A stretch of 64,000 bases of DNA, taken from NCBI GenBank assembly GCA_958296045.1, contig CATQHT010000001.1, positions 1-64,000 on the forward strand, read 5' to 3'. The number at the start of each line of letters is the position of its first letter. The stretch's first letter is position 1. This stretch comes from Rhodothermales bacterium. Its GTDB lineage: Bacteria; Bacteroidota; Rhodothermia; Rhodothermales; Bin80. Shown here in pieces: positions 24,648 to 49,644 of this stretch. Below the pieces are notes generated by a model. It was not told where the DNA came from. It did no database searches and was given only the letters and a program-made list of their open reading frames with translations. A program made the translations under genes and the position numbers.

Positions 24648-27600
24648 ATGAGGCATGGGAAGCTACTGGGTGTTTTGGCAGCACTTTTGCTATTTGCATC
24701 GCCCGCCCTTGCGCAACGCGGCAAAATTGCTGGGACGGTAACAGATGCCGCGACTGGCGAAACGTTGCCGGGCGTCAATGTGCTTGTGGTTGAGACGCAG
24801 CAAGGGACGGCATCGGACATTGACGGATATTTCTTCATCAACAATGTCCGTCCTGGCACCTACACGCTGCGCATCTCGCTGGTTGGTTACACCGAGCGTG
24901 TAGTTCAGGATGTGCGCGTATCCACAGGCCTAACCACGACCACCAATGTTGAGATGCGGGAAGAGGAGATCGGCCTTGACGAAATCGTAGTCGTCAGTGA
25001 GCGTCCGATCGTCCAGCTCGATGTGTCTGCCAATGTGGCCAGCCTTAATGCGGAGGCTTTTGAAGACCTTCCGGTGGCCGGCGTCACCGAGGTGCTGGAC
25101 CTGCAGGCTGGCATTGAGCCAGGGCTGCGAGTGCGCGGTGGAGGGCTCAATGAGGTGGCCTTCGTCGTAGACGGCATGAACCTGCGCACAGGCCGCTCGC
25201 AGCAACCGTTCACCAACATCAGCTACACCTCGCTCGAGGAGGTACAGGTGCAGACGGGCGGTTTCAACGCGGAGTACGGCAATGTCCGCAGCGGTATCGT
25301 CAACGTAACCACCAAGGAGCCTTCCAGAACCCGCTTCAACGTGGATGCGCTGATGCGATACATCCCGGCGCAGCCTAAGACGTTAGAAGGATTGGGCGGC
25401 GTTAACCTGAACGACTGCGACTACAGCGGCAGCGGGATGGTGGCCGGAGACTGCGATAGCTGGTACATCCGGCCTTTCCTGGATCCGGCGGTCGCCATGG
25501 ACGGCACCGAAAGCGGAGCCTGGGATATCTACAAGCAACGCCAGTACAACGGATTTGAGGGATGGACTACGCTGGCCGAGCGCCTCAGGAATGACGAGGG
25601 CTTCGACGTCACCGAGAAGGACATGCAGGACTATTTCAAGCACACGCACCGCAAAGATAACGCGATCAGTGTGCCTGACTATGAGGCGGACGTTTCGCTG
25701 AGCGGGCCTGTGATCCCAGGCAGCGGTTCCTCACTTGGGGATCTGCGCTTCCTGGTATCGTATCGCGGTACGCAGACGGCCTACCTCTATCCCCAGTCTC
25801 GGAATGCCTTCACAAGCAACACAATTCAGGGCAAGCTCGTCTCGAACGTGAGCCGCGGCATGAAGCTGACGATCAATGGCATGACAAGCCAGGAGCGCGG
25901 CATCAACCAAAGCCAGGGGTCGGCGGACCTTCGGATGTACAGTGGTAACCTGCCTGCCTACCCTTGGTGGGGCGCTGGCGCGGATATCGTGGACGGCATC
26001 AACCGCCGTGGCCGCGTCATTCTGTCGGACGGTGCGTTCCCTTTGGCTGACGTCGACCATTCGCTGTACGGAGCGACGTTCACGCATACGCTTAGTCCAA
26101 GCACCTTCTACGAGGTAAGCCTGCAGAATCTTGCCACGAAGTATCGCAGCCACTTCCCGAACCTGCGGGATGGTTCGTACATCGACGAGAACGGCAACTT
26201 TGTCCAAGTCCCCTGGACGAACAACCTTGGTCGTCCTACCGAAGCCGGTTTGCAAAATGAGGACCGGCTCACCAAGTTCGGCGGCACCGAAGATCTCAAC
26301 GGCGACGGCGTGCTTACGCCCTATGTGGTCGGTGATGAGCCGTTTGGCTTTCTTGGGCAGGGTGGCAACCTTATTGGTGGTGCAGAAACCACTGGCGGCC
26401 ACTGGGTCAAGACCCGTGATACCTCTGATGTGAGCGTATTTACGGGACGCTTTGACCTGACCAGTCAGCTGACGCGCGTGCTGCAGCTAAAGACCGGCGC
26501 CGAGCTCATCATCAGCGATTACGACCTAAATTACCAGCGCGTAAACTTGGCGCTGGTCGGACCAGAGCCCGAGGCGGATTACCCGTTCTCACGGACGCCG
26601 ATTCAGGGTGCGGCATATGCACAGGGGAAACTTGAGTTTCAGGGCATGATCGCCAACCTGGGCGTTCGCCTTGACTTCTTTGATGCTAATACGCCGTGGT
26701 GGGTTACGGACAACCCGTACGATGCCGCCTTTCGGCAGCGCGTAGATGGCCTGGACGAGCTTCTGGAAAAAGAGGACCCCGCTGCGCAGATCTTTGTCAG
26801 CCCACGCCTTGGCATCTCTTTCCCGATCTCGCTGGATAGTAAGCTGTATTTCAACTACGGCCATTTCCGGCAGATGCTCAACCCGTTTGATATCTTCGGC
26901 ATCCAGCAATCCCGTAACGGTGGCATAGATGTGCTTGGCAATCCTGAACATCCCATGCCGCTCACGGTGGCCTATGAGCTGGGGTTTGACCAGAACATTG
27001 CGGACCAGTTTCTGCTGCGCATCTCTGGATTCTATCGTGACATCAAGAATCAGCCGCGCGGGGTGACCTACCGCTCACTGGGCAGCGTGGTGGCCTACTC
27101 CACCCGGGAGCCGTGGAACTACCGTGATGTACGTGGTGCGGAAGTCACGCTAACCAAGAGCCGTGGCGCATGGGTACGTGGATTCTTGAACTACACCTAT
27201 CTGCAGACAAAGGGTGGCAATTTCGGGTACGGGCAGTTCAGCGAGAACACGTTTGAGCAGCGCAACTATTTGCGTACCTCTACGGACTACCGTCAGGGGA
27301 CGCCTTTGGCGGAGCCGTTTGCCCGGGGCAACTTGCTGTTTTTGACGCCGTCAAAGTTTGTGCCCAGCGTGCTCAATGGCGACCTGCTTGGCGACTGGCG
27401 CGTCAGCCTTTTGGGCGAGTGGCGTGCGGGCTCACAGTGGACATGGGCTGGTGGGGCGACGGCACCGCCGGAGCTTCAGGAGAATGTTCGCTGGCGCAGC
27501 TACGTTAAGTTTGACCTTCGTTTCACGAAGCATATCAACACCCAGTTTGGTGCGGCGCAGCTGTTTCTTGACGTCGACAACGTCTTTAACCGTCGGCACT

Positions 27601-28049
27601 TGTACAGTGTGACGGGCTTCCACCCGGACAACCGGGACTTTGATCGGTACATGTGGTCGCTGCACCTGCCTGGAGACATCTATGACGAGCTCAATGCAGT
27701 AGACGGCAGCAAGAAGTACAACGAAAAAGTTAAGGCTGGCGTGCTTCCGTATGTGTGGGTGCCGGGCAATGATCAGCCTGGCGTGTTCCGTCACCCGGAT
27801 GTCGCCTACCAGCCCGTAGAGGCTGTGGGTACCCTAGCGAACGTGAGCGATCCGCAGGCCGCTGCCTGGTACTGGGCTGCTGACACTGGCATGTACTCGC
27901 AGTGGAACGGATCGGCGTGGACGGAGGTACCGCAGGACCAGGTGGATCAGATGCTCAAAGACAAGGCATACATCGATATGCCGAACCTGCGATTCAACAC
28001 GTTTCTGAATATCCGGCGGGTAACCCTCGGTGTACGACTGACCTTCTAA
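24648..28049 (+). CDS. TonB-dependent outer-membrane receptor with carboxypeptidase-like N-terminal domain
   Basis: About 1,133 residues from ATG 24648, chosen because GGAGGA sits just upstream and the signal peptide MRHGKLLGVLAALLLFASPA follows; the longer frame adds unrelated residues. Residues about 25-100 are a carboxypeptidase-D-like beta domain (GTVTDAATGETLPGVNVLV). A TonB-box-like DEIVVVSERPIV (about 110) leads into the plug, with VRGGGLNEVAFVVDGMNLR and VQTGGFNAEYGNVRSGIVNV. The rest is a beta-barrel ending in VTLGVRLTF with a terminal Phe. It imports a substrate or handles a surface complex. No SusD gene follows; a secreted Fn3-type protein does. Confidence 0.93.
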   Translation: MRHGKLLGVLAALLLFASPALAQRGKIAGTVTDAATGETLPGVNVLVVETQQGTASDIDGYFFINNVRPGTYTLRISLVGYTERVVQDVRVSTGLTTTTNVEMREEEIGLDEIVVVSERPIVQLDVSANVASLNAEAFEDLPVAGVTEVLDLQAGIEPGLRVRGGGLNEVAFVVDGMNLRTGRSQQPFTNISYTSLEEVQVQTGGFNAEYGNVRSGIVNVTTKEPSRTRFNVDALMRYIPAQPKTLEGLGGVNLNDCDYSGSGMVAGDCDSWYIRPFLDPAVAMDGTESGAWDIYKQRQYNGFEGWTTLAERLRNDEGFDVTEKDMQDYFKHTHRKDNAISVPDYEADVSLSGPVIPGSGSSLGDLRFLVSYRGTQTAYLYPQSRNAFTSNTIQGKLVSNVSRGMKLTINGMTSQERGINQSQGSADLRMYSGNLPAYPWWGAGADIVDGINRRGRVILSDGAFPLADVDHSLYGATFTHTLSPSTFYEVSLQNLATKYRSHFPNLRDGSYIDENGNFVQVPWTNNLGRPTEAGLQNEDRLTKFGGTEDLNGDGVLTPYVVGDEPFGFLGQGGNLIGGAETTGGHWVKTRDTSDVSVFTGRFDLTSQLTRVLQLKTGAELIISDYDLNYQRVNLALVGPEPEADYPFSRTPIQGAAYAQGKLEFQGMIANLGVRLDFFDANTPWWVTDNPYDAAFRQRVDGLDELLEKEDPAAQIFVSPRLGISFPISLDSKLYFNYGHFRQMLNPFDIFGIQQSRNGGIDVLGNPEHPMPLTVAYELGFDQNIADQFLLRISGFYRDIKNQPRGVTYRSLGSVVAYSTREPWNYRDVRGAEVTLTKSRGAWVRGFLNYTYLQTKGGNFGYGQFSENTFEQRNYLRTSTDYRQGTPLAEPFARGNLLFLTPSKFVPSVLNGDLLGDWRVSLLGEWRAGSQWTWAGGATAPPELQENVRWRSYVKFDLRFTKHINTQFGAAQLFLDVDNVFNRRHLYSVTGFHPDNRDFDRYMWSLHLPGDIYDELNAVDGSKKYNEKVKAGVLPYVWVPGNDQPGVFRHPDVAYQPVEAVGTLANVSDPQAAAWYWAADTGMYSQWNGSAWTEVPQDQVDQMLKDKAYIDMPNLRFNTFLNIRRVTLGVRLTF

Positions 28050-28058
28050 AGGTGACCG

Positions 28059-28090
28059 GCAGCCGGCGGCGTGATCGCGCTGTCGGCTGC
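28059..28090 (+). promoter_or_regulatory. Intercistronic hairpin between receptor and secreted-protein genes
   Basis: GCAGCCG (28059-28065) pairs with CGGCTGC (28084-28090), and CG-rich bases in the loop can extend the stem. There is no T-run, so it is more likely an mRNA processing or differential-stability element than a terminator. Confidence 0.35.
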
Positions 28091-28119
28091 GCTATTCACT
28101 TCATCAAATCAGCAAGCAC

Positions 28120-30441
28120 ATGAAACTTTCTTGCTACTCGAAACACCTTGTTGCTGCTTCGCTCCTGTTGCTAATGGGTGCACACGTGGCACAGGCGCAG
28201 TTCACCGCGCAGTGGCTCGACATCGGTACGTTCCATGGGACATACACGGAGTCGGGTGCACAGCACGAGGGGAACAGCTCGGCCGCAGACGGCATGGAAT
28301 GGCCAGCGATCTTGCGCAACAGTAGCCACTTTAGGGCAAAAGCGTTCTGGCTCGGAACGAAAGACTGGACGGACCCGAATGGTCAGAGATGGCCCTACTT
28401 CGTGGCGCGTATCGGACCCAGGACCGCAGGCGCGGATGTCTCGTTTCCAGTGCAGAATGTCCTCAAGAGCCGCACGGAGGATACGGAGGTAGAAGTGGAC
28501 GGCGCGCTCTCATTTGACAACGTGGCGGTGATCGATGAGATCGATCCGGGTCTGCCGTCCGACCGCATGGTTCACAACATCCACAACACCCTTATCGGTA
28601 TCACGGTAGATCGAAGGGCCTACGGATGGGTCAATCAGGTCCACGACGACTATCACATCATCGAATACGTATATACCAACACGGGCAACAGCGATGATGA
28701 CGATGAAATAGAGCTTCCCAACCAGACGCTCAAGGACACCTACTTCTTTCGGATTCACCGTTGGAGAGGCAGCCTACAGGGTGCATGGACGGTCAGTGGC
28801 GGCCAGGTGTGGGGTAAGTTCAGCATGGTGGATGTCGTTGGTGACGGGCATGCGGACTATCCGATTTCGTTTACCGCGCAGTACCTATGGATCGGGGTGG
28901 ACCCCGAGGCGCAGTCGCAGTATGACAGGATTGGCTCGCCCGTATTTACGGAGCACACATGGGTGGCTTCCGGCGACTCGCTGGGCCGTCTAGCGGGCAG
29001 CTCGTTCATCGGACGAACCACGATCCACGCGGATAACTCGCCTACGGACATGAGCTATATCCGATGCACGATGGCTACCATTGATTCGTGTCAGCCGCGT
29101 TCCATGGGCTATATGGACCAGGATGAGGCGCTAACTTCGGACGGCTCGCCACACGAGGACTATTACGAGTGGGGCATCCGGACGCGTGAGAATCCTGACC
29201 GGATTACCGGCGGATCGCAGCACATGTTTCCGCATTATGCGGACAGGATTGAGCCAAGCGGCAAGTTCTGGGAAGCCAAGAATGATGCTTCCACAGGTAA
29301 GCAGGGCGGCCATGCTGTCACTACCGCGTACGGTCCCTACGACATCGGTCCCGGGGAGAGTGTGCGTATCGTCATTGTAGAAGGTATTGGCGGGTTGGGC
29401 TTCGATGCCGACTACAAAGTTGGACGATCTTACAAGCGTGGCGGCTCGGCCCGTGACATGAAAATGATCGCGTTCGATGCCAATGGTGACGGCATGATCC
29501 AGACGGGAGACTTCAATTATGAAATCAACCAGATGGATACGGACAACGACGGCATGTTTGACACCTTTGGTTGGGGTCTGGAGGAGATGACTAAGAACCA
29601 GTGGGTCATGACGTCACGGGATTCGCTGTTCACCGTGTTGCAGCGCGGAATCAATTTGTATGCGGCGAGCAACAACATGAGCACGTATCCGATTCCAGAA
29701 GCGCCGCATGCACCATTGGAGTTCAGTGTGTTCGGCCGCCCTGACAAGGTGGATATTGAGTGGACGCCTCCTGCAGGCGGTCCCAGCCGTACCAAATGGC
29801 TGCTGTATCGCGCGGACTTGTGGGAAGACCATCTGTACACCAACGGGTGCACGGACGAGTCTAACTTTGGCTCTGGCATCATTGACGGCTCACCCTCCCA
29901 GATGGCGTGCGGCTATGAGATGGTTGCGGAGCTGGATGCCAGCGCGACCTCGTATGCGGATACGGGTCCGGTTCGCGGTACCGACTATTACTACTTCTTA
30001 CAGGCGGTCGGCGGCTCGCAGCCGAATGATCCAGATGGCATCACTGGTACGCCGGGTGGCGTTGCGTTGCGCAGCTCACGCTATCTGACGCAGACCTACC
30101 AGCCGGTAAACCTGAAGCGGCCGCCTTACGGTAGCACGGGCACGGTTGCAGACGCGCGTGTCGTGCCGAATCCGGTCAACCTGGGTGCCGATAACACGGT
30201 ACGCTTTGAGCAGGAAGATCGCCTCGCGTTCTTTAACATTCCAGGTGACTGCACCATCAAGATCTTCACTGAAATTGGAGAGCTTGTGCACACGATCGTG
30301 CATGATGATGGTAGCGGGGACGAGCTGTGGAACATGACGACGCGGTCGCGGCAGCTGCTGGTGAGTGGCATTTATATCGCGGTGATCACGGACAACTCCA
30401 ACGGCGAGGAGTCTGTGCTGAAATTCACGGTCATCCGTTAG
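28120..30441 (+). CDS. Large secreted protein with Fn3-like domain and C-terminal sorting-like domain
   Basis: The 773-residue protein begins with a signal peptide (about 1-26, ending HVAQAQF). The long N-terminal region contains several Asp-rich calcium-loop-like stretches, for example DANGDGMIQTGD and DTDNDGMFD (about 455-485). Residues about 525-640 (HAPLEFSVFGRPDKVDIEWTP and following) look like a fibronectin type III domain. The last 90 residues (VVPNPVNLGADNTVRFE, then LVSGIYIAVITDN, KFTVIR) resemble type IX secretion C-terminal domains. I infer a surface-attached partner of the preceding TonB receptor. No enzymatic motif was recognised. Confidence 0.8.
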   Translation: MKLSCYSKHLVAASLLLLMGAHVAQAQFTAQWLDIGTFHGTYTESGAQHEGNSSAADGMEWPAILRNSSHFRAKAFWLGTKDWTDPNGQRWPYFVARIGPRTAGADVSFPVQNVLKSRTEDTEVEVDGALSFDNVAVIDEIDPGLPSDRMVHNIHNTLIGITVDRRAYGWVNQVHDDYHIIEYVYTNTGNSDDDDEIELPNQTLKDTYFFRIHRWRGSLQGAWTVSGGQVWGKFSMVDVVGDGHADYPISFTAQYLWIGVDPEAQSQYDRIGSPVFTEHTWVASGDSLGRLAGSSFIGRTTIHADNSPTDMSYIRCTMATIDSCQPRSMGYMDQDEALTSDGSPHEDYYEWGIRTRENPDRITGGSQHMFPHYADRIEPSGKFWEAKNDASTGKQGGHAVTTAYGPYDIGPGESVRIVIVEGIGGLGFDADYKVGRSYKRGGSARDMKMIAFDANGDGMIQTGDFNYEINQMDTDNDGMFDTFGWGLEEMTKNQWVMTSRDSLFTVLQRGINLYAASNNMSTYPIPEAPHAPLEFSVFGRPDKVDIEWTPPAGGPSRTKWLLYRADLWEDHLYTNGCTDESNFGSGIIDGSPSQMACGYEMVAELDASATSYADTGPVRGTDYYYFLQAVGGSQPNDPDGITGTPGGVALRSSRYLTQTYQPVNLKRPPYGSTGTVADARVVPNPVNLGADNTVRFEQEDRLAFFNIPGDCTIKIFTEIGELVHTIVHDDGSGDELWNMTTRSRQLLVSGIYIAVITDNSNGEESVLKFTVIR

Positions 30442-30462
30442 GTGGTTGGCAATCAAAAAGCT

Positions 30463-30478
30463 CCGGCCGCAAGGCCGG
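30463..30478 (+). promoter_or_regulatory. Short perfect hairpin upstream of the PorV-like gene
   Basis: CCGGCC, loop GCAA (a GNRA tetraloop), GGCCGG: a very stable 6-bp stem between the secreted-protein stop (30441) and the PorV-like start (30490). With no following T-run it probably affects mRNA stability or translation rather than ending transcription. Confidence 0.4.
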
Positions 30479-30489
30479 GGCACGACTAA

Positions 30490-31581
30490 ATGGCAACGAA
30501 AACACGTACAGCTGCTATGAACAAGCGCTACAGCACAATCCTGGTTATCCTGGTGCTTCTTGCGGGCATCGCGCCTTCGCCGGCGCTGGCTCAGCAGGGT
30601 CTTACGCCTGACACGGAGGTTACCACCCAGAAGCGTGCACAGACGGGAATGAAGTTTCTCAGTACGTCTGTCGACCCGAGGGCATCGTCCTTGGGGTCGG
30701 CATTGACGGCGGAGTTTCAGGGGTCGTCGACCTCCATGTTTTACAACCCGGCCAGTATGGCGTTTATGCCGGGCCGGTTTTCCGCTTCAGGAGGCATCCT
30801 GCAGTTTATTGCGGATATCCAGTACACACAGGCCAGCGTGGCATTTAAGCCTGGTGGTGGCAATTTGGGTGTGATCGGTTTGTCGTTGGTGAGTGTGAAC
30901 TACGGGGACTTTATGGGCACGATCCGGGCGAACAACGAGGACGGGTTTGTCGATACGGGCGTGTTCTCTCCTACTGCCATGGCAGTAGGATTGGGGTATG
31001 CGCGTTCCTTCGGTGATCGCTTTTCTGCTGGCGCGAACATCAAGCTTGCGATGCAGGATCTTGGCAGCGATTTTGTGACGAGTCAGGACTTCGATACCGG
31101 GGTGTCCGCGTCCATGGACAGCTACAGCACCCAGACGTTCGCATTTGACTTCGGTGTTCTGTATTCCACGGGATTCCGCAGTTTGACCATTGCTATGATG
31201 GCGCGCAACTTTGCGGCGGAGCAGACTTATGTCCGGGAGCGGTTCGAGTTGCCGCTGACGTTTCAGATTGGTGTTTCCATGGACCTTGTGGACTTAACCA
31301 CGTTGGATCCAGACATGCATCAGTTGCAGTTCAATGTGGATGCGCAGCGTCCTCGCGACTTTTCTGAGCATCTCCGATTTGGGCTTGAGTATACGTTCAT
31401 GGGTGCTGGGTCTCTCCGTGCCGGTTTTGAGCAGGCGGCCGTAAGCGAAGAGCAGGGCTTCAGCGCGGGTGCTGGTTTCCGGCTTGGCCGGGGTGACTTT
31501 CAGTTCGGTGCGGATTACGCGTACACCGACTTCGGCTTGTTCGGTGCGGTGCACCGCATGGGAGTGAATGTCGGCTTGTAG
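30490..31581 (+). CDS. PorV/PorQ-family outer-membrane protein
   Basis: The 363-residue protein has a signal peptide (from Met 1 or Met 10, ending SPALAQQG) and then the typical PorV opening GMKFLSTSVDPRASSLGSAL, followed by FYNPASMAFMPGRFSASGG, which matches the FadL/PorV-like barrel start. It ends MGVNVGL. PorV and relatives accept type IX secretion cargo at the outer membrane or act as surface shuttles. Directly behind a protein with a sorting-like C-terminal domain, it may serve that cargo. No other type IX component is present in the window. Confidence 0.85.
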   Translation: MATKTRTAAMNKRYSTILVILVLLAGIAPSPALAQQGLTPDTEVTTQKRAQTGMKFLSTSVDPRASSLGSALTAEFQGSSTSMFYNPASMAFMPGRFSASGGILQFIADIQYTQASVAFKPGGGNLGVIGLSLVSVNYGDFMGTIRANNEDGFVDTGVFSPTAMAVGLGYARSFGDRFSAGANIKLAMQDLGSDFVTSQDFDTGVSASMDSYSTQTFAFDFGVLYSTGFRSLTIAMMARNFAAEQTYVRERFELPLTFQIGVSMDLVDLTTLDPDMHQLQFNVDAQRPRDFSEHLRFGLEYTFMGAGSLRAGFEQAAVSEEQGFSAGAGFRLGRGDFQFGADYAYTDFGLFGAVHRMGVNVGL

Positions 31582-31612
31582 CGACAATAGGAGTTTGTAG
31601 GCGGTCCAGCGG

Positions 31613-33370
31613 ATGCTGGGGCGTGCTGATCGGGCGGGAGATGTGGCGTGGCGCCGCGTTTTCCGCCCGTTGCGTTGTTTTCGGCCAGCGCTGCTTTTAA
31701 CCTCAGTACTTGCCGCCGCGTCGCAGTGGGGGGGATGCGAGTTGGCTGAGGACCTTGACTCGGTGCAGGCTCCGGGACTGGCAAGTGGTATCCAGTTCAC
31801 GGAGGTGACGGTAGAGGCAGGGTTGGGTGCGTTTGTGCACGACAACGGTGCTGCCGGGGATAAGTACTATGCGGAGCAGATGGGGTCTGGAGGTGGTTGG
31901 CTGGACTATGACGGAGACGGTTGGCTGGATGTTCTGCTGATGGGAGGGGGCCAGTGGGATCGTGCCCCCAAGGCGGGGTATAGGGCGTTGTGGCTGTACA
32001 GGAACCTAGGTGGCGAAACGTTTGTGGATCGGACCGAGGAGGCCGGGCTGGCTGAGGTGGTCGCCTACACCATCGGAATGGCGGCTGCCGATTATGACAA
32101 TGACGGTGACACGGACTTTCTACTGACGAGCCTCAACCACAACATGCTGTTTCGTAATGATGCTGGTGTGTTCACAGAGGTTGGGGGCCCCGCGGGGCTG
32201 TCTAACGAAGACGAGTGGAGCAGCTCCGCGTTGTGGCTGGATTCAAACCGGGACGGATGGCTGGATGTCTATGTCGGTAACTACGCGAACTGGGCGCCAG
32301 AGAGGGATAAGTTTTGCCCTGAGGGCGCAGAAGTGAAGCTTTACTGCGTACCGGCCGACTATCAGGGAATGCCCAGTCGTTTCTATCTAGGAGGCCCTGA
32401 CGGGGTGTTTTCCGATGTGACGCGAGAGGCAGGCGTATTTGTAGCCTACGGGAAGGCGCTTGGCATGGCGGAGTTTGATTACAACCGTGACGGTTGGAGC
32501 GACTTTGTCGTGGCCAATGATGGTGAGGGGGACCTACTGTTTCACAACCGGGGTGACGGCACGTTTGAGGAGCGCGGGGTGATCAGCGGGGTGGCGTTTA
32601 GTGAGCATGGGGAGGCGCGCGCTGGCATGGGCATCGACATAGGTGTAGTTGATGAGACGGGCGAGCCGTCCATCTTTGTGGGCAACTTTTCGGAGGAGAT
32701 GATCGGGGTGTACCGCCATATGGGTAACGGTTTGTTTCTGGATCGAGCGGCCTCGTCCAGGATCGGACAGCCCAGTCTTAACACGCTGGCGTTTGGCCTT
32801 TTCCTATTCGACGTGGATCTGGATGGGGATCTGGATTTGTTTTCTGCCAATGGCCATGTGTACCCGGATCGTCTGGTGAATCAGGACAAGATCACATATA
32901 GGCAGCGGTCGCAGGTTTTTGAGAACGTGGGTGAGGGCAGGTTTGAGGAGTTTGCTGCGACCGAGGGCTCGCCGCTTACGGTCCGCATGGTTGCCCGGGG
33001 AGCGGCGTATGCAGATTATGATAAGGACGGGGATGTGGATATTCTCATCACCGAAAACGATGGTCCGGCCCACCTGTGGCGCAACGACCATGTGGGTCAT
33101 GGCTTTTTGCGGTTTGCAATAACGCCGCGGTGGGGGAACCGTGACGGGCTGGGTACCAGGATCGTGATCTTAGCGGAAGGACGGCGGCAGGAGCGGCGCG
33201 TGCGCGGCGGCTCCAGCTATCTGTCGCAGAGTGAGCTAGCGGTGACGTTCGGGCTCGGGGTGGCTACCCAGGCGGATAGCGCCTGGGTGTATTGGCCGTC
33301 TGGGTCGGTGACGGCGTTGGGGCCGCTGGAGGCAAATCAGGAGGTCCACGTTGTTGAAAGCGATCTATAG
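31613..33370 (+). CDS. CRTAC1-family protein (FG-GAP/VCBS repeats + ASPIC/UnbV), copy 1
   Basis: The 585-residue protein starts after a stretch that may be a lipoprotein signal (VLAAASQWGGCELA). Six or more Asp-rich blade motifs follow, for example LDYDGDGWLDVLL, ADYDNDGDTDFLL, LDSNRDGWLDVYV, FDVDLDGDLDLFS and ADYDKDGDVDILI, indicating a beta-propeller with calcium sites. The C-terminal domain (about 500-580: RDGLGTRIVI, GGSSYLSQSELAVTFGLG, VYWPSG) is ASPIC/UnbV. Such proteins are extracellular; no catalytic function is established. It is the first of three tandem paralogues. The start codon is not certain. Confidence 0.88.
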   Translation: MLGRADRAGDVAWRRVFRPLRCFRPALLLTSVLAAASQWGGCELAEDLDSVQAPGLASGIQFTEVTVEAGLGAFVHDNGAAGDKYYAEQMGSGGGWLDYDGDGWLDVLLMGGGQWDRAPKAGYRALWLYRNLGGETFVDRTEEAGLAEVVAYTIGMAAADYDNDGDTDFLLTSLNHNMLFRNDAGVFTEVGGPAGLSNEDEWSSSALWLDSNRDGWLDVYVGNYANWAPERDKFCPEGAEVKLYCVPADYQGMPSRFYLGGPDGVFSDVTREAGVFVAYGKALGMAEFDYNRDGWSDFVVANDGEGDLLFHNRGDGTFEERGVISGVAFSEHGEARAGMGIDIGVVDETGEPSIFVGNFSEEMIGVYRHMGNGLFLDRAASSRIGQPSLNTLAFGLFLFDVDLDGDLDLFSANGHVYPDRLVNQDKITYRQRSQVFENVGEGRFEEFAATEGSPLTVRMVARGAAYADYDKDGDVDILITENDGPAHLWRNDHVGHGFLRFAITPRWGNRDGLGTRIVILAEGRRQERRVRGGSSYLSQSELAVTFGLGVATQADSAWVYWPSGSVTALGPLEANQEVHVVESDL

Positions 33371-35051
33371 CGTCTGTGCGGCTGGGGCCATCATGGTGGT
33401 ATATGCTGCCTGCGGCGGGTCTCGGCCTGCCGATGAGGTGGAGCATGCGTCACCGACGCTCTTTACGGACGTGACAGAGGAAGCTGGTCTGCAGGGCTTT
33501 GCGCATTCGAATGGCGGGTTTGGAGAGGCTTGGGCGCCGGAGATTGTGGGTGCGGGTGCAGGGTTTCTGGATTACGATGGCGACCGATGGCAGGACCTAG
33601 TGCTGGTGGCGGGAGGTTCATTCGCCGGGCATGAGCGGTACCGAGGACCGTGTGTACGCCTGTTTCGCAACTTGGGTGATGGCACCTTTGAGGAAACTAC
33701 CGGTCAGATGGGGCTGCATGAGGCAGTGTCATACGCTTTTGGCGTGACCGTTGGCGATTATGACAACGATGGCGATCCCGACCTCTTTGTTGCTACGTTA
33801 TATCGGGATCTACTATTGCGCAATGACGATGGGCGCCGGTTTGTGGAGGTCGGCCAAGAGGTTGGCGTGGGCGCGGTGAGTGAGTGGAGCACATCGGCGA
33901 TGTTCGTTGATGCGGACCATGACGGGTGGCTGGATCTGTATGTCGGTACGTACGTGTCGTGGTCACCGGACACGGACCACTACTGTGGTTTCGACGGCGA
34001 AAAGGTGTATTGTACGCCGGAGGTCTATGACGGGATTGCATCCCGTTACTACCGGAACATGGGGGATGGCACTTTTCGGCTGTGGACGGCTGAGGCCGGT
34101 TTCCTGTCGGGCATTGATGCCAGGCGCGACAAGACGCTAGGGGTAGCGGCCTTTGATGCGAACGGGGATGGATTGACGGATGTGGCGGTCGCCAACGACA
34201 CCGAGCGCGACCTGTTGTTTATGAACGATGGTGACGGCACGTTTACCGAGACCGGTATCCGCAGCGGCATAGCGTACGACCTGCATGGTGTACCGCGCGC
34301 TGGCATGGGCATCGACATTGGCGTGGTGGATCCATCGGGAGAACCTTCCTGGTTTGTCGGCAACTTCTCGGGAGAGATGGTAGGCGTGTATCGTCACACG
34401 GGCGATGGCTTGTTTATGGATCGCGCAGCGGCTTCGCTGGTGGGACGTCCGACGCTGAAGACGTTGACTTTCGGGTTATTCCTGTTTGATGTGGACCTGG
34501 ACGGCGACCTGGACCTCTTTGTGGCCAACGGCCACGTACAGACGCATATCGATCGAATTGTGGAGGGTATCACTTTCCGACAGAGGGCGCAGCTGTTCTT
34601 TAATGACGGCAGCGGCCGCTTCAGCGAAGCGCCGGCTGAGGGCGCGCTTGCAGCGGAGATGGTAGCGCGTGGTGCGACGTACGCGGATTTCGACAAAGAT
34701 GGTGACCTGGATGTGGTGGTGACAGAAAATGATGGGCGGGCGCACTTGTGGCGCAATGAGACGCAAGGCAAGACATGGCTGCGTGTGCGTCTGCAAGGTC
34801 GCGTATCCAATCGCGACGGGTATGGTGCGACGGTGGTGGTCACCAGTGGCGGTATGGATCAGGTGCGCACGGTGTCGGCCGGATCCAGCTACCTTTCGCA
34901 CTTAGAATCCGTAGCGACGTTCGGGTTGGGGTCTATAGATACGGTGGACAGCGTGGCGGTGTACTGGCCGAGCGGGATGGTGGATGTGGTACGCGCACCG
35001 GCTTCAGGAAGCGAGATCGTTGTTACAGAAGGAGCGACAGATGCGCTCTGA
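33351..35051 (+). CDS. CRTAC1-family lipoprotein, copy 2
   Basis: From TTG 33351 the frame is 566 residues and overlaps the end of copy 1 by 20 bases. The signal peptide ends VVYAACGG, a lipobox. Blade motifs LDYDGDRWQDLVL, GDYDNDGDPDLFV, VDADHDGWLDLYV, FDANGDGLTDVAV, FDVDLDGDLDLFV and ADFDKDGDLDVVV follow, and the ASPIC/UnbV tail ends SYLSHLESVATFGLG and VYWPSGMVDV. The TTG start is preceded by GGAGG. Overlap and shared architecture point to tandem duplication and coupled translation with both neighbours. Confidence 0.88.
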   Translation: MLKAIYSVCAAGAIMVVYAACGGSRPADEVEHASPTLFTDVTEEAGLQGFAHSNGGFGEAWAPEIVGAGAGFLDYDGDRWQDLVLVAGGSFAGHERYRGPCVRLFRNLGDGTFEETTGQMGLHEAVSYAFGVTVGDYDNDGDPDLFVATLYRDLLLRNDDGRRFVEVGQEVGVGAVSEWSTSAMFVDADHDGWLDLYVGTYVSWSPDTDHYCGFDGEKVYCTPEVYDGIASRYYRNMGDGTFRLWTAEAGFLSGIDARRDKTLGVAAFDANGDGLTDVAVANDTERDLLFMNDGDGTFTETGIRSGIAYDLHGVPRAGMGIDIGVVDPSGEPSWFVGNFSGEMVGVYRHTGDGLFMDRAAASLVGRPTLKTLTFGLFLFDVDLDGDLDLFVANGHVQTHIDRIVEGITFRQRAQLFFNDGSGRFSEAPAEGALAAEMVARGATYADFDKDGDLDVVVTENDGRAHLWRNETQGKTWLRVRLQGRVSNRDGYGATVVVTSGGMDQVRTVSAGSSYLSHLESVATFGLGSIDTVDSVAVYWPSGMVDVVRAPASGSEIVVTEGATDAL

Positions 35052-36717
35052 TCGTACGCTCTTGTGGGTGCTGGTGGTTGTCGCTGCATGCGGTTCGCCC
35101 CGTGACGAAAACGTAGCGGAGGAGGTTGCGCCAGCATCGCTGCCTGTGCTTGCCTTTGAGGACGTGACGTTCCAGATGGGTCTGGGCGGGTTTTCACATG
35201 TTACCGGGGCGTTTGGCCAAAAGTGGTTTCCAGAAACGATGGGTGGGGGCGGCGGCTTTCTGGATTACGACCAGGACGGCTGGCTGGACCTGTTGCTGGT
35301 CAATGGCAATCCGTTTCCGTCGCGCGGCGAGCTCAAGCCATCGGCACTTCGTCTGTATCGGAACGTGGAGGGTACCGCATTTGAGGAAGTCACCCAAGAG
35401 GCTGGGCTTGGAGAATTGCACGCGTACGCGTTTGGCATCACGGCGGCGGATTACGACAATGATGGCGATACGGATGTCATGGTGACCACGCTATTTCAGA
35501 ACCTTTTGTTGCGTAATGACGGGGGAGTCTTCACCGACGTAGCTTCAGAGGTGGGACTGGCGGACGAAGCGGTATGGAGTGCGGCTGCGGTCTTTTTTGA
35601 TGCGAATCGGGACGGCTGGCTGGATCTGTATGTGGGCAACTATGTGGATTGGTCGCCAGAGAAGGACATCACCTGTACGCGCGTCGCAAATCGCAAAGCG
35701 TATTGCACGCCTGAGCTGTATCGTGGCCTGACTGGAGCGTTCTACCTCAGCCGCGGGGATGGCACGTTTGCGCGCCAGTCGGGATTGTTTGACAGCGCGC
35801 CGGGCAAGACGCTGGCTGCCATCAGCGTGGACTACAACAGGGACGGATGGTCGGACCTTATCGTGGCCAATGACACGCAGCGCGACTTGCTCTTTGAAAA
35901 CCAGGGGGACGGCACCTTCGTCGAAAAGGGCGTATTCAGCGGCATTGCTTTTGACGAAAACGGCCGCGCCCGCGCGGGCATGGGGCTGGATGTGGGTGTG
36001 GTGGACGAAACGGGCGAGGTGACGCTCTTTGTAGGTCACTTCACTGCCGAGATGGTCGGTGTGTACCGGCACACGCAGAACGGCTTCTTTATGGATCGGG
36101 CCGCGGCCTCACAGATAGGGCGCCCCAGTCTGCGCACGTTGACGTTCGGGCTATTCCTGTTTGATGTGGATCACGACGGCGACCTGGATCTGTTTACTGT
36201 CAACGGGCACATCACCGAGGAGATCGGGCTGGTGGAGGAGGGGATCACGTACCGGCAGCAACCGCAGCTGTACATCAACCGGGGCGGCGGTCTGTTTGAG
36301 GAGATGCCTGCGGGCGAGGACGGGCTTCTGGCCCGACCGCTTGTTGGTCGTGGCGCGGCCTATGCGGATTGGGACCGGGATGGAGACCTTGACGTGTTGG
36401 TTACCGAGAATGGTGGTCCGGTGCATCTGTGGCGCAACGATTCCGTAATTGCGGGATATTTGCAGGTAGAACTCACAGGCAGGACCAGCAACAGAGATGC
36501 GATTGGTGCCCGCGTGGTGATATTCGCTAATGGAAGACGCCAGGAGCGTGAGGTTCGCGCGGGTGGCAGCTACCTTTCGCAGTCTCAGCAGTCGGTGCAT
36601 TTCGGGTTGGGGCAGGCGTCCGAGGTGGACAGCCTCCATATTTACTGGCCGGGTGGCCAGGTACATCGGCAGGGTTTGGTGGTGGCCAACCAGGTGGTGC
36701 ATGTCGTTGAGCGTTAG
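35041..36717 (+). CDS. CRTAC1-family lipoprotein, copy 3
   Basis: I start at ATG 35041 (558 residues) because AGAAGGAG lies 8 bases upstream and the next residues form a lipoprotein signal MRSDRTLLWVLVVVAACGSP; the longer frame from 34984 reads the previous gene out of frame. The overlap with copy 2 is 11 bases. Blade motifs include LDYDQDGWLDLLL, ADYDNDGDTDVMV, FDANRDGWLDLYV, VDYNRDGWSDLIV, FDVDHDGDLDLFT and ADWDRDGDLDVLV, followed by the ASPIC/UnbV domain ending IYWPGGQVHR. Extracellular, lipid-anchored; function unknown. Confidence 0.9.
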   Translation: MRSDRTLLWVLVVVAACGSPRDENVAEEVAPASLPVLAFEDVTFQMGLGGFSHVTGAFGQKWFPETMGGGGGFLDYDQDGWLDLLLVNGNPFPSRGELKPSALRLYRNVEGTAFEEVTQEAGLGELHAYAFGITAADYDNDGDTDVMVTTLFQNLLLRNDGGVFTDVASEVGLADEAVWSAAAVFFDANRDGWLDLYVGNYVDWSPEKDITCTRVANRKAYCTPELYRGLTGAFYLSRGDGTFARQSGLFDSAPGKTLAAISVDYNRDGWSDLIVANDTQRDLLFENQGDGTFVEKGVFSGIAFDENGRARAGMGLDVGVVDETGEVTLFVGHFTAEMVGVYRHTQNGFFMDRAAASQIGRPSLRTLTFGLFLFDVDHDGDLDLFTVNGHITEEIGLVEEGITYRQQPQLYINRGGGLFEEMPAGEDGLLARPLVGRGAAYADWDRDGDLDVLVTENGGPVHLWRNDSVIAGYLQVELTGRTSNRDAIGARVVIFANGRRQEREVRAGGSYLSQSQQSVHFGLGQASEVDSLHIYWPGGQVHRQGLVVANQVVHVVER

Positions 36718-36721
36718 CGTG

Positions 36722-37690
36722 ATGCGTGGTGCACCTTGGCTTAGTGGCAGCTTCTTACTGCTTCTATTGGCTTGTCAGCCACGCACTGAGGAGCCTCCGG
36801 CTGAGGTTCGCATGCTGCTCTGGGAATTCCAGGATGCCCACAGTCTGGGTAGCTTTGTGTACGCTCTGGCACTGTTAGACAGCGCAACAGCGCTGACGCC
36901 GGCCTTGGCGCGCCTTCATTTTATGCGCGGCGAGCTCTTGACGAAGCTGTATCGGTTTGAGGAAGCGGACGAGGCCTTTGCCGAGGTGTTACGCCACAGT
37001 CCTCGTCACCTTGGTGTAGAGTACCGGCGGGGCAACAACGCCTTCTTTGTGGGGCAGACGCGTCGCGCTTCGGGGCATTATTTCAGTGAGTGGGCGCTTT
37101 TGGGACCAAGCCCAGACGCTGGTGCTGCCAGCCGGGTCTGGGCGCAGATCGGGCGCGTGTATGCTCGGCTGGGCGTTGTCGACAGTGCGCGGATGGCATA
37201 CGAACGATCGCTGAGCCGGGACACTGAGCAGCCGGAGGTCTGGCTATGGATGGCGGAGCTTGCCGAAGATGGCGGCAGCCTGAAAGAGGCGCTGTCGCAC
37301 GCGGAAGAGGCGATCGCGTTGGACTCCGCGAATGCCGGGTATCGATATCTGGCAGGGGCTCTTCAGTACCGTCTTAGCAACCCGGCAAAGGCGATACCTC
37401 ACCTTAAGGCAGCCATCCAGGCTGAGCCATGGCATGCAGGCGCACATTATAATTTGGGCCGCAGCCTAGTGGCGTTGGGACGAGCGGGTGAGGGGGCCCC
37501 ACACCTGGAGGCTACCGATTCGCTGCAGGTGCTTCAGGCAGACATTGTGCTGGCCACGTTTGCGGTGCGCCAGTCTCCTGAGGGTGCCAGAGAGTGGGCC
37601 GTATTGGCTGGGCTCTACGAGCGTGCTGGGCGGATGGAGGAGGCGCGCAGTGCGTACAGCATGGCGCGCCAGCTTCTGAGTTCGAACTAA
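36722..37690 (+). CDS. TPR-repeat lipoprotein 1
   Basis: About 322 residues from ATG 36722, 5 bases after the third CRTAC1 gene. The signal MRGAPWLSGSFLLLLLACQP contains a lipobox ending LAC. The rest is a series of tetratricopeptide units, clearest at LARLHFMRGELLTKLYRFEEA, VWAQIGRVYARLGVVDSARM and AGAHYNLGRSLVALGRAGEG-type segments. TPR proteins scaffold other proteins; here it presumably sits on the periplasmic or surface face with the CRTAC1 lipoproteins. An ATG at 36701 overlapping the upstream gene is an alternative start. Confidence 0.85.
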   Translation: MRGAPWLSGSFLLLLLACQPRTEEPPAEVRMLLWEFQDAHSLGSFVYALALLDSATALTPALARLHFMRGELLTKLYRFEEADEAFAEVLRHSPRHLGVEYRRGNNAFFVGQTRRASGHYFSEWALLGPSPDAGAASRVWAQIGRVYARLGVVDSARMAYERSLSRDTEQPEVWLWMAELAEDGGSLKEALSHAEEAIALDSANAGYRYLAGALQYRLSNPAKAIPHLKAAIQAEPWHAGAHYNLGRSLVALGRAGEGAPHLEATDSLQVLQADIVLATFAVRQSPEGAREWAVLAGLYERAGRMEEARSAYSMARQLLSSN

Positions 37691-37740
37691 CAGCCCCCGG
37701 CAGGCGTTTATCGCGCCCCGGTCGATCCTTTGCCACTCTA

Positions 37741-38979
37741 ATGCGCATCTTTGTACACCTTGGCTTTGTCGGGTTGTTGCTGGTCGGGTGTCAGCAGCAG
37801 GGGCGCTCGGTCACCGAGCGGCAGCGCAGGGCGTTGCCCCAGCGCGTGGCGCTGATGCTTATTGAAGGACAGCGGGCGTTTGAGGAGGGCCGGTACGATC
37901 TGGCCTTGGCCTACACCGACAGCGTGGACGCATTTGCGCCGGATCTTGCGGATCTGCACTTTTTACGTGGGGCGATATATACCCGCCTAAACCGTCCAGA
38001 CGTGGCAGAGGCAGCCTACAATACTGTTCTGGAGCTGGACCCGTGGTACGCTGGTGCGCGCCACAATATGGGGCTCAATGCTTATCGTCGCGGACGTCTG
38101 CGCAGCGCCATCACCTTGTATCACGAAGAGGAGGAGCGGGTTGGAGGCACCGCAGCACTTTATCACGAGCTGGGGCGCGCCTATGCAAAGCTTGGCGAGC
38201 CTGATAGTGCCCGTGCCGCCTATGAGGCGGCGATCGCGCAGGACAGCCTCCATGCGACCTCATACATGTGGCTGGGGCAGCTACTAGAGGAGGCGGGAGA
38301 TCTAGAGGAGGCACTGACGTTTTCGCTCAAGGGCCTTCGGCTTCGTCCAGACAACCTGGATTATCAATACATCGTGGGCACGTTGTACCGGCGTCTTGAG
38401 CAGCCCGAGGAGGCGCTGCCTTTCCTGGAGCCTGTCGCGCAAGCCAAGCCGTGGCATCAGGGAGCGCAGACAAATCTGGGGCAGGTGTTGGTGCAGCTCG
38501 GTAGGACCGGGGAGGCGCAGCGTTTCCTTGCCCAGGCCGAGGTGGCTCAGCAGCAAGCGCAGGCGATCAGCGAGGCAGAGGAGGCCATCAACCAGGACCC
38601 GGATATGCTGGACAATTGGCTTCAACTGAGCGACCTACTTCGCCAGAGCGGGCAGTATGGGAGGGCCATTGAGGCGCTCAAGAACGCTGCGGCTCGGGAC
38701 ATGCCACGCGGCATGTGGCTGGCGCTACAAAGTAATCTGGCATTTTTGTATCTGCAGGATGGGGATGCGGCGCAGGCTTCTGCCATATTCGAAATGGTGC
38801 TCCTGAACGATTCTTCGATGGCTGCAGCTTGGGTAGGGTTGGGTGCCGCGTATGGCACGATGCATCGGACAGCGGACGCCCGGCGGGTGCTTGCGCGTGC
38901 GCTTGCGCTTGAGCCAAACAACGAGGCGGCCTTGCAGAATATGGCAGAGCTTGATGCCATGATAGCGGACCGGGAGTAG
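37741..38979 (+). CDS. TPR-repeat lipoprotein 2
   Basis: About 412 residues from ATG 37741. The signal MRIFVHLGFVGLLLVGCQQQ ends in a lipobox VGC. At least eight tetratricopeptide units follow, for example LHFLRGAIYTRLNRPDVAEA, LYHELGRAYAKLGEPDSARA, SYMWLGQLLEEAGDLEEALT and WVGLGAAYGTMHRTADARR. It shares the layout WHxGAxxNLGxxLVxLGR with the preceding TPR gene, so the two are probably duplicates. It likely scaffolds the same complex as the CRTAC1 proteins, by position only. Confidence 0.86.
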   Translation: MRIFVHLGFVGLLLVGCQQQGRSVTERQRRALPQRVALMLIEGQRAFEEGRYDLALAYTDSVDAFAPDLADLHFLRGAIYTRLNRPDVAEAAYNTVLELDPWYAGARHNMGLNAYRRGRLRSAITLYHEEEERVGGTAALYHELGRAYAKLGEPDSARAAYEAAIAQDSLHATSYMWLGQLLEEAGDLEEALTFSLKGLRLRPDNLDYQYIVGTLYRRLEQPEEALPFLEPVAQAKPWHQGAQTNLGQVLVQLGRTGEAQRFLAQAEVAQQQAQAISEAEEAINQDPDMLDNWLQLSDLLRQSGQYGRAIEALKNAAARDMPRGMWLALQSNLAFLYLQDGDAAQASAIFEMVLLNDSSMAAAWVGLGAAYGTMHRTADARRVLARALALEPNNEAALQNMAELDAMIADRE

Positions 38980-38987
38980 ATAGCGGC

Positions 38988-40310
38988 ATGGGTCGGAATC
39001 ACAGTGCAGAGCGCGGGCCCGCCCCGAGTCTTTCCAGGTGGCCGCGGCGAGTCGGGCTATGGCGACGAGCTGCGTGCGCGTTGGTTACTATTCTGGCGTT
39101 ATGCGCCATGGCCGCTTCTTCGCCAGCTCAGCATCTGGAGGATGGCGCTTGGGTGGGTCGTATCATCCATCTGACGGGGCGGAGCATGGACGTCGTGTAC
39201 CAGGTGCGCGGCGGTGCTGAGGGGCCGATCATCACTATGGAGGTGGACGGGTACGGTCCGTTCGAATTCAAGAATATTCGTTCTACGTCCGACAGCCTAC
39301 GTTTCACGTGGGAGCCTTCCTTTGAGCTGGCCTGTTCGCTGGCGCGGCTTGAGGGTGGGGAGTTCCAGGGTGCTTGCATGGATCCGTGGGGCGGCTTTGG
39401 TGGCATTGTGATGGCGCCGCCGGGGTCGAATGTCGGCGCCATTGCTATTCACGACGAGACTATAGAGAGTATTGCTGGGTGGACGGAGCCGCCCAAGGGC
39501 GACACGTTGCCTGACCTCGGATCGACCTATCCGTTTGGACGACAAGTCATGGTTCACGGGCGAGAGGTCAACTTGGTCGAGGCAGGTGACGGTCCGGTCA
39601 CGGTGGTGCTGGAGGCGGGGCTTGGTGACAACCTATCCTCTTTTGAGCGCCTGCATCAGCTGCTTGCTCTCGACGTGCGTGTGGTGGCGTATGACCGCGC
39701 GGGCCTGGGATTTTCGGAGGCCTCGGCTGCGCCCAGGAGTCTGGAGCAGGTCGCCACTGAGCTGCGCGGGATGCTTCGCGAGGCTGGCATTGCGCCGCCG
39801 TACGTGTTGGTCGCCCATGCGGAGGGCGCGCTTTATGCGCAGCGCTTTGCGGCATTGTACCAGGACGCAGTGGTTGGAATGGTGCTGGTGGACCCTCACC
39901 TGGAGACGTTTGCTACGACTTGGCGGGCATTGGACGCGGAGTCCTTAGAGCACTACTGGGAAGGGCGAAAGGCGTTGCATCAGCACATGCCGAGCGCTGT
40001 GCAGGCGGAGTTTGCTGGCTACGTGGACGTCATCGAAAAGGGGCATCTGGATGGAAGCGACCGCCTTTTGTCCCTTCCCGTGACCGTGCTGACGGCGGGT
40101 CGCATCAGCGAGCAGCCCCGTTGGGTGGGAGAAAGTGCTACGGGTCGCGAGGCATGGGTCGAGGCGCATGCCGCGTGGGTCCGGCGCATCGACGGCAACC
40201 ATATTGTAGTGCCCGGAAGCGGTTCATATATCCACCAGGAGCAGCCGGTCCGCGTCATGCAGGCGATCCATGCGCTCTTGCGCGAGAAGTCTGTATCCAT
40301 CGACCGGTAG
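38988..40310 (+). CDS. Exported alpha/beta-hydrolase-fold protein with altered catalytic residues
   Basis: The 440-residue protein has a signal peptide (about 24-48, ending ASSPAQH), an N-terminal beta-rich domain (about 50-165) and an alpha/beta-hydrolase domain: VVLEAGLGDNLSSFERLHQL, VVAYDRAGLGFSE and VDPHLE follow the fold. The nucleophile elbow, normally G-H-S-x-G, reads A-H-A-E-G, so the serine is alanine. Near the C-terminus the usual SGH region reads GSGSYIHQEQP, with serine where catalytic histidine is expected. The protein therefore probably binds rather than hydrolyses. It starts 8 bases after the second TPR gene and closes the cluster. Confidence 0.85.
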   Translation: MGRNHSAERGPAPSLSRWPRRVGLWRRAACALVTILALCAMAASSPAQHLEDGAWVGRIIHLTGRSMDVVYQVRGGAEGPIITMEVDGYGPFEFKNIRSTSDSLRFTWEPSFELACSLARLEGGEFQGACMDPWGGFGGIVMAPPGSNVGAIAIHDETIESIAGWTEPPKGDTLPDLGSTYPFGRQVMVHGREVNLVEAGDGPVTVVLEAGLGDNLSSFERLHQLLALDVRVVAYDRAGLGFSEASAAPRSLEQVATELRGMLREAGIAPPYVLVAHAEGALYAQRFAALYQDAVVGMVLVDPHLETFATTWRALDAESLEHYWEGRKALHQHMPSAVQAEFAGYVDVIEKGHLDGSDRLLSLPVTVLTAGRISEQPRWVGESATGREAWVEAHAAWVRRIDGNHIVVPGSGSYIHQEQPVRVMQAIHALLREKSVSIDR

Positions 40311-45901: not shown

Positions 45902-45928
45902 GGGGGTGGGCCAAAATTAGTGGAAACG
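45902..45928 (+). repeat. Terminal inverted repeat (tnpA 3' side) of IS256-like element
   Basis: Begins GGGGGTGGGCCAAAATTAG and ends TGGAAACG; 23 of 27 bases match the other end. The transposase stop codon (45917-45919) lies within it. Confidence 0.85.
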
Positions 45929-48279: not shown

Positions 48280-48337
48280 CGATAAAGTGCGTTGTGGTTA
48301 GGGAGCTCAGGTGCATTGTTCCCCCCTGAGCGTGCCG

Positions 48338-48364
48338 CGTTTCCACTAATAATGGCTCACCGCC
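48338..48364 (-). repeat. Terminal inverted repeat (5' side) of IS256-like element
   Basis: Read on the minus strand from 48364 it begins GGCGGTGAGCCATTATTAG and ends TGGAAACG. It supplies the first bases upstream of the dead paralogue and may contain the element promoter; about 58 bases separate it from the start codon. Confidence 0.85.
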
Positions 48365-49061: not shown

Positions 49062-49644
49062 CTTCCAGATGCGGGTCTGAGCTATGGGTCGACTGAGTAT
49101 TAACGATGGAGCGACTCTAGCGCCAACCGTTGGTGAGCATCGGGTGCGTCTGCTGTTACCGTCGTAGCACGAGACTCGTCCGCACGATTGTGTCGAGACA
49201 GCCATCTGTCGCGATACGGAGGGCCCAAGCCGGGCATCATGGCACCGGCAATACGTGTGGGGTCCACCTCTTAACAAAGTACTTTAGCCCATGATCCCAG
49301 TACTCACTGAGTTCAGACCAGCGGCAACCTGCTCCACGATGCACCCACGATGCATCTCGCAGCGCGATCCAGTTTGCACATCCTGGCACTTGCGCGTTTT
49401 GCGACAGGATCTGCCACAATAATGGTGCCCCGGCGGGCTCAACTCGGAGGGTCGTGTAGCCCCAAATGAATGCGCCGCGGTTGCCGTCGGAGTGTGTGCG
49501 TCAGGGCCTACGGACAGGCACACTACATTGGTCCGTTATGCGCGGGGCACCCAGCCTCGAAGCAGTGCGGGCAGATTCGGAGGAATCCCTGGTCAGATCG
49601 GAGTCGCGGGCCACTGGGCGTGCCGATAAACAATGCAGGGAGAC
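49062..49644 (-). other. Intergenic region with an unrecognised minus-strand reading frame
   Basis: Between the LRR gene start and the DUF302 gene, a minus-strand frame without stops runs from about 49505 to 49237. It contains DGNRGAFIWGYTTLRVEPAG, CANWIALRDASWVH and SELSEYWDHGLKYF, which looks protein-like but has no ATG at its head and no family I can name. It may be a gene remnant. The LRR promoter should lie at 49062-49200. Confidence 0.3.

Follow-up and report, generated by a model that had tools for sequence, protein, structure and literature searches.

The window analyzed here is the stretch of 64,000 nucleotides (G000:C1:1-64000) at the start of a contig in the 4.78-Mb genome of a Rhodothermales bacterium, the host family containing Rhodothermales metagenome genomes, several of them from sponges as far as record names tell. 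Within it, positions 24648 to 40310 hold a cluster of nine genes, every one on the plus strand and with short or negative gaps, the core of which is a triad: a gene for a TonB-dependent receptor (TBDT), a gene for a secreted partner protein and a gene for an outer-membrane barrel of the PorV/PorQ family. By analogy with known systems, we lean slightly toward reading this cluster as a SusCD-like surface uptake complex, probably for a glycan, in which a partner exported by the type IX secretion system (T9SS) and held by the barrel would take the role of SusD. The initial annotation had counted eight or nine overlapping or closely spaced plus-strand genes, which agrees with the nine found (the ninth, not named there, lies at 38988 to 40310), and its significance is wider than was claimed at the time, the unusual element being the receptor-partner-barrel triad. 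The features of the cluster and its flank are as follows.

22843 to 24444, plus strand: sodium/solute symporter of the SSS family (PF00474, 1e-70; TIGR00813, 362 bits; slightly below the NF007790 cutoff)
24648 to 28049, plus strand: TBDT with N-terminal CarboxypepD_reg domain and plug (PF13715, 1e-22; PF07715, 1e-7)
28120 to 30441, plus strand: secreted partner, with signal peptide, predicted beta-supersandwich (residues ~27 to 525), Fn3 domain (~530 to 640) and T9SS C-terminal domain (CTD; ~673 to 773)
30127 to 30441, plus strand: conserved PorZ-like CTD of the partner, its best-conserved section
30461 to 30482, plus strand: GC-rich hairpin in the partner-barrel intergenic gap (fold, -23.4 kcal/mol; z, -2.9; without a T tail on this strand)
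30490 to 31581, plus strand: PorV/PorQ-family outer-membrane barrel (NF033709, 173 bits; alternative start, ATG at 30517)
31613 to 33370, plus strand: CRTAC1-type lipoprotein 1, with FG-GAP propeller and ASPIC/UnbV domain (PF13517, 5e-35; PF07593, 6e-16; lipobox WGGC; six DxDxDG motifs)
33351 to 35051, plus strand: CRTAC1-type lipoprotein 2 (PF13517, 2e-38; PF07593, 4e-15)
35041 to 36717, plus strand: CRTAC1-type lipoprotein 3 (PF13517, 3e-35; PF07593, 2e-19; ATG at 35041 chosen from the lipoprotein signal)
36722 to 37690, plus strand: tetratricopeptide repeat (TPR) lipoprotein 1 (TPR models; lipobox LLAC at the start)
37741 to 38979, plus strand: TPR lipoprotein 2 (TPR models; lipobox LVGC)
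38988 to 40310, plus strand: exported protein with an alpha/beta-hydrolase fold and an extra N-terminal domain (PF12697, 3e-10)

Gene order in relatives, which had been set beforehand as a test capable of refuting the proposed complex, proved to be kept in the family. The order seen in the window is identical in L057, L060, L061, L062 and L063, with TPR lipoprotein 1 missing in L061 and L063 (sister genus g2), and is kept up to the contig limits in L058 and L059; because it is the same across relatives, we do not regard the cluster as a product of chance. (Genes of relatives were called in a profile-guided manner; longest-open-reading-frame calls gave false genes at high GC content, such as one of 1424 amino acids in L064 that belonged to no family.) In variants of the cluster from other families and phyla, the numbers of CRTAC1 and TPR genes vary, and receptor, partner and barrel remain together. 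Relatives found with the partner profile come from Rhodothermales, Melioribacteraceae, Ignavibacteriaceae, Neomarinimicrobiota, KSB1 and Calditrichota, with a few records filed under Chlorobiota or Bacteroidetes; among them, the gene immediately upstream of the partner encodes a TBDT in 76 of 83 cases, and the one immediately downstream encodes a PorV-family protein in 71 of 82.

The same picture emerged from a search with the CTD alone in eight genomes (six from Rhodothermales and two from Neomarinimicrobiota). This profile yielded 76 matches, 67 of which were followed directly, 69 to 296 nucleotides on, by a PorV-family gene, and these neighbors make up 67 of the 111 PorV-family genes counted. 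In the fetched stretches, 58 of the 67 genes with a CTD of this new class stand directly after a TBDT gene, and 55 belong to complete triads; single genomes, that of the window included, carry 5 to 11. In the window's genome, a PorV-family gene directly follows five of six new-class CTDs, versus 2 of 41 CTDs recognized by TIGR04183, and these two exceptions are PorU, located before the canonical PorV, and a gene that in fact belongs to the new class. Across 56 triads, tree distances of receptor, ectodomain, CTD and barrel correlate with r values of 0.76 to 0.88; with partners shuffled within genomes, mean r was 0.02 to 0.07 and the observed value was reached in 0 of 1000 shuffles, which shows that the triad genes are cognate, co-inherited units.

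The partner protein (28120 to 30441) matches no Pfam family. An AlphaFold2 model based on 84 relatives (pLDDT 89.6, pTM 0.87) superseded an earlier one based on 16 sequences (pLDDT 65), which had mainly given matches to Fn3 folds and PorZ. In the newer model, residues ~27 to 525 resemble the N-terminal domain of sugar enzymes of the GH116/GH94 type (VIA-align Z, 17.5; root mean square deviation [rmsd], 3.8; 280 aligned residues), which we take to be the beta-supersandwich of those enzymes. The match to GH94/GH116 is by this N-terminal domain alone, followed in the partner by Fn3 and CTD; the (alpha/alpha)6 barrel was not itself searched for. Of the large, Fn3-type secreted protein that the initial annotation had described, the secreted character stands, as a signal peptide is read from the sequence (and no lipobox), while Fn3 is confined to residues ~530 to 640 and the bulk is predicted supersandwich. 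Taken whole, partner ectodomains chain into a single family, and their N-terminal parts fall into two main size classes, of ~660 to 830 and 1000 to 1300 amino acids.

What had been noted as a sorting-like end of the partner is, by profile and predicted fold, a T9SS CTD, although one outside TIGR04183. Residues 673 to 773 of the model resemble the CTD of PorZ (VIA-align Z, 11.9; rmsd, 2.3; 89 aligned residues; 20% identity), and the CTD profile matched that of 56 type A T9SS CTDs with an hhalign probability of 97%, versus 0.5% for an Fn3 control. Against the PDB, its best match was PorZ, with a weak E value of 0.025, and the NCBIfam model of PorZ matches only the last 97 residues of the partner. 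The last 110 residues have a mean column identity of 60% (alignment A5), compared with 32% for the whole protein (alignment A3). With the type A model, TIGR04183, the window partner scores below the curated cutoff and is absent from the 41 matches in its genome; with the type B model, TIGR04131, it gave no match at an E value of 0.01. Counted from the PNP motif, the median length of the new CTDs is 93 residues, versus 79 in ordinary cargo CTDs. In Porphyromonas gingivalis, cleaved CTDs have 67 to 88 residues, and the uncleaved ones of PorZ and PorU have 96 and 108, respectively, and carry a beta-ribbon after strand 5 (PMC11285876). The modeled window CTD has short bridges at residues 740 and 746, between strands 5 and 6, a weak sign that it may fit the uncleaved class. 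With its signal peptide and its C-terminal, Ig-like CTD, as read from sequence and model, the partner qualifies as predicted T9SS cargo. The secretion system itself is encoded in the genome, with SprA (1689 bits), PorU (941 bits), PorV (262 bits) and the 41 type A CTDs; SprA, over its cutoff in 112 of the 114 genomes of the order, is near-universal and hence uninformative.

The barrel, originally called PorV-like, indeed belongs to the PorV/PorQ family (its 173 bits compare with a subfamily cutoff of 90) and lies below the equivalog cutoffs of both PorV (NF033710, 48.8 against 250) and PorQ (NF033711, 90.7 against 220). We ruled it out as the T9SS shuttle of this genome, the canonical PorV being encoded at C1:664020-665096, beside PorU. 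By analogy, we propose that it serves the partner as its cognate anchor or shuttle. PorZ is kept at the cell surface by PorQ (PMC5562754), type B cargo is held by barrels of the PorP/SprF type whose genes come immediately downstream (PMC9143113, PMC12618676), and cognate PorV-like barrels have been proposed in a review to shield the CTD from cleavage (PMC10202324).

What the data support directly is the gene content, its conservation and shared inheritance across phyla, the CTD class and the fold as predicted; the mechanism that we favor would build on this as follows. The partner would cross the outer membrane via the T9SS and retain its PorZ-like CTD uncleaved; its own PorV/PorQ-like barrel would then hold it beside the receptor, as PorQ does with PorZ, where it would capture a ligand for the receptor, i.e., do for it what SusD does for SusC. 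Since the supersandwich fold resembles sugar enzymes, this ligand would most likely be a carbohydrate. The CRTAC1 beta-propeller lipoproteins may add to the assembly at the surface, with the TPR lipoproteins as possible scaffolds, and the SSS symporter may carry the product over the inner membrane. As for the broader proposition that an additional class of T9SS CTD, served by dedicated anchors of the PorV/PorQ type, exists across the Fibrobacterota-Chlorobiota-Bacteroidota (FCB) superphylum and builds TBDT uptake complexes with either CRTAC1 lipoproteins or IPT/TIG lipoproteins and T9SS proteins as accessories, our judgment is evenly balanced.

The initial annotation had called the arrangement an unconventional, SusCD-like surface complex. 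As a description of how the cluster works, this is well supported, since the receptor has a partner other than SusD that carries a T9SS CTD and is conserved and inherited along with it; in terms of membership, the cluster is not a SusCD system. No Pfam SusD model matched any protein of the cluster, confirming that the receptor is not followed by SusD, and against the SusC/RagA model TIGR04056 the receptor reaches 71.8 bits, over residues 26 to 232 only, where the cutoff is 368. On that score, we rejected it as a conventional SusC. The symporter gene ends 203 nucleotides 5' of the receptor gene and is also found 5' of the receptor in L060, L062, L063, L078 to L081, L084, L085, L090, L095 and L096, making it a possible inner-membrane partner of the receptor.

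Regarding the substrate, the predicted supersandwich together with the neighbors of related clusters favors a carbohydrate. In the window's genome, downstream of one paralogous triad (L052) come two sulfatases and a protein with weak similarity to GH127, and another (L051) is followed by a heparinase II/III-like T9SS protein. Elsewhere, the CRTAC1 clusters in L076, L117 and L150 have Gfo/Idh/MocA oxidoreductases at their ends, glucose-type dehydrogenases dependent on pyrroloquinoline quinone (PQQ) are found in or by L114 and L127, a GH3 gene lies by L097, and a rhamnose isomerase is among the identified neighbors of the clusters scanned. Sulfatases also occur near triads at a higher rate than expected (13, versus 5.5 expected; p 0.017). 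The sulfatases, heparinase-like protein, Gfo/Idh/MocA proteins and PQQ dehydrogenases, along with the partner fold, thus favor the glycan capture that was suggested initially. That the system imports proteins, peptides or some other nonglycan ligand seems to us very unlikely. An N-acetylmuramoyl-L-alanine amidase (PF01510) does lie downstream of one paralogous triad, but the clusters that were scanned yielded no peptidase, and the identified neighbors are mostly related to sugars. The protein uptake considered in the initial annotation is, in other words, unsupported.

Several observations weigh against a glycan uptake complex. The window cluster itself yielded no sulfatase, glycoside hydrolase or lyase, and with no carbohydrate-active enzyme among its ten proteins, as judged by Pfam, it does not qualify as a polysaccharide utilization locus. 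The enrichment of sulfatases near triads is modest, and the supersandwich fold is also found in proteins that do not bind carbohydrates. One Neomarinimicrobiota genome has two partner genes (L132/L162) without TBDT and barrel. Finally, the agreement between trees is no proof of contact: neighboring genes that duplicate as a block have a common history even if their products never touch.

Downstream of the triad, the three overlapping CRTAC1 lipoproteins and two TPR lipoproteins of the initial annotation were recovered by PF13517, PF07593, TPR models and lipoboxes. All three CRTAC1 proteins exceed the cutoffs of both PF13517 and PF07593, placing them among FG-GAP plus ASPIC/UnbV proteins, and each has a lipobox and five or six DxDxDG motifs, on account of which calcium binding is likely. 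The three genes are old paralogues, each forming a separate clade across the family; relatives of CRTAC1 lipoprotein 2 occur in 57 of the 114 genomes of the order, and lipoboxes are present in 65 of 79 CRTAC1 and 51 of 54 TPR homologues.

Whether the CRTAC1, TPR and hydrolase-fold genes belong to the complex may be questioned. The triad could be a real surface complex and these genes operon passengers with another job, such as adhesion or matrix building, which we regard as unlikely. Triads do widely occur without CRTAC1, and 43 of the 67 CRTAC1 genes in the eight genomes sit elsewhere, some of them beside SusC/SusD-like pairs. Against this, the remaining 24 ASPIC/UnbV genes lie within 13 kb of a triad, where 3.6 would be expected (p ≤ 0.0002), and CRTAC1 genes are limited to one clade of the partner tree, in which they follow downstream in 26 of 34 cases, compared with 0 of 28 outside it. 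Of the eight exceptions lacking CRTAC1, two are at a contig end, and L100 and L125 carry CRTAC1 upstream, on the other strand. Moreover, CRTAC1 accompanies its triad clade in Rhodothermales, Neomarinimicrobiota, KSB1 and Calditrichota; in the clade without it, IPT/TIG lipoproteins and type A CTD proteins take its place. Because it is both confined to one partner-tree clade and enriched near triads, CRTAC1 is a clade-specific accessory of triads.

A T9SS-exported adhesin or scaffold complex, with a receptor serving signaling or energy transfer rather than uptake, is a different option, and one that we consider quite unlikely. Pairs of type B CTD and PorP mostly carry known or predicted adhesins (PMC12618676), many relatives seem, from their record names, to derive from sponge-associated metagenomes, and the DxDxDG loops in each CRTAC1 protein would suit such a role. 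However, the partner is free of adhesin repeats, its predicted fold resembles sugar enzymes, and the receptor is nearly always present, as is, in the host family, the solute symporter. The calcium-dependent adhesion offered by the initial annotation has these same DxDxDG motifs as its sole basis; what they point to is calcium binding.

TPR lipoprotein 2 is conserved in every CRTAC1-type cluster read in the family. As candidates for PorW/PorE of the T9SS, the TPR genes were rejected, scoring far below the cutoff. In the hydrolase-fold protein, the serine of the nucleophile elbow is absent from all 11 of 11 aligned sequences (alignment A4), the position being occupied by A, D or G (HAEG in the window, where GHSxG is usual), and for that reason it is probably a conserved pseudoenzyme and not a hydrolase.

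Two further observations concern CRTAC1 proteins outside the window. Proteins with cytochrome c554-like and TPR regions adjoin a CRTAC1 gene at L070:9523-12408, L071:12856-15726 and L075:3612-6332, hinting at a redox step. The window's genome also encodes very large CRTAC1 proteins (>1000 amino acids) at L046 (G000:C2:735-746 kb), beside a SusC/SusD-like pair, and at L044 (C3:742-752 kb).

Compared with the SusC/SusD (RagA/RagB) systems of Bacteroidota, the triad likewise has a TBDT with a CarboxypepD_reg domain and, after it, a single dedicated partner gene that is inherited with it; several copies occur per genome, some beside sulfatases. It differs in that the partner is predicted to consist of supersandwich, Fn3 and T9SS CTD, with neither a lipobox nor a Pfam SusD match, in that a PorV/PorQ-family barrel is nearly always added and in that the receptor falls far under the SusC model. 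With PorZ-PorQ and PorU-PorV, it shares a CTD of the uncleaved length class, structurally nearest that of PorZ, and a cognate PorV/PorQ-family barrel; unlike in those pairs, the ectodomain is unrelated to PorZ propellers or the PorU sortase, and the module is linked to a receptor and occurs many times per genome, in addition to the canonical PorU and PorV. Type B cargo with PorP/SprF (SprB-SprF, Fjoh_3952-3951) similarly has a CTD gene followed by its own dedicated barrel gene, whereas the triad has a CTD with a type A-like Ig fold, a barrel of the PorV/PorQ family and a receptor. The accessory proteins share FG-GAP propeller repeats and ASPIC/UnbV with cartilage acidic protein 1 (CRTAC1), the human protein (9etn) being their sole sequence match in the PDB; unlike it, they are bacterial lipoproteins, present in one to three copies by the triad. 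Among the open-access PMC papers searched, we found no description of bacterial CRTAC1 with TBDTs or TPR proteins, nor of PorV with TBDTs in these phyla. Every part is of a known family; it is the combination, the CTD class and the spread that we did not find described in those papers.

If the uptake complex is as we propose, TonB-dependent uptake and the T9SS, which have been studied apart, would be joined in one recurring module, with some five to eleven copies in each of the genomes read. Many unexplained PorV-family paralogues would gain a job, and the view that one PorV handles all CTDs of the type A fold would be challenged. Hard-to-culture FCB phyla would gain uptake systems as well. 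Cultured members exist, e.g., Roseithermus sacchariphilus, which has a triad of the CRTAC1 type (CP030158, near 2268211).

As for expression signals, the partner-barrel intergenic position is occupied by strong hairpins of differing sequence at 12 of 27 related loci; none of these is in the clade without CRTAC1, and the hairpins may represent an element for RNA stability or attenuation. An Rfam scan of the window gave zero matches, and a sigma-70 scan gave 2 sites, versus 6 in shuffled sequences, so promoters could not be placed. The four nonlipoprotein signal peptides (at 24648, 28120, 30517 and 38988) all seem to end near a glutamine, in line with the Q-rule of Bacteroidetes (PMC5837995).

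Outside the triads, two tandem partner genes without TBDT and barrel in a Neomarinimicrobiota genome (L162; G114:C1:774255-786257) lie directly beside a cluster of at least four sulfatase genes. In the window itself, a TnpB-like gene with a Cas12f1-like TNB domain (21128 to 22420) is inserted between the upstream genes that are conserved, and the other strand carries another copy, which is partial (50838 to 51755). On the minus strand, a gene for a leucine-rich-repeat (LRR) protein with a T9SS CTD (44578 to 49277) appears to have been interrupted by a neighboring pair of Mutator/IS256-like transposase reading frames (45917 to 47203 and 47200 to 48279); an intact LRR gene adjoins the cluster in relatives L062 and L063. 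Further on, at 52232 to 63733 on the minus strand, tandem DUF1501 genes alternate with planctomycete-type PSCyt1/DUF1549/DUF1553 genes, one gene of the array having a laminin-G insert, and a PSCyt1-DUF2231-LRR protein is encoded there as well.

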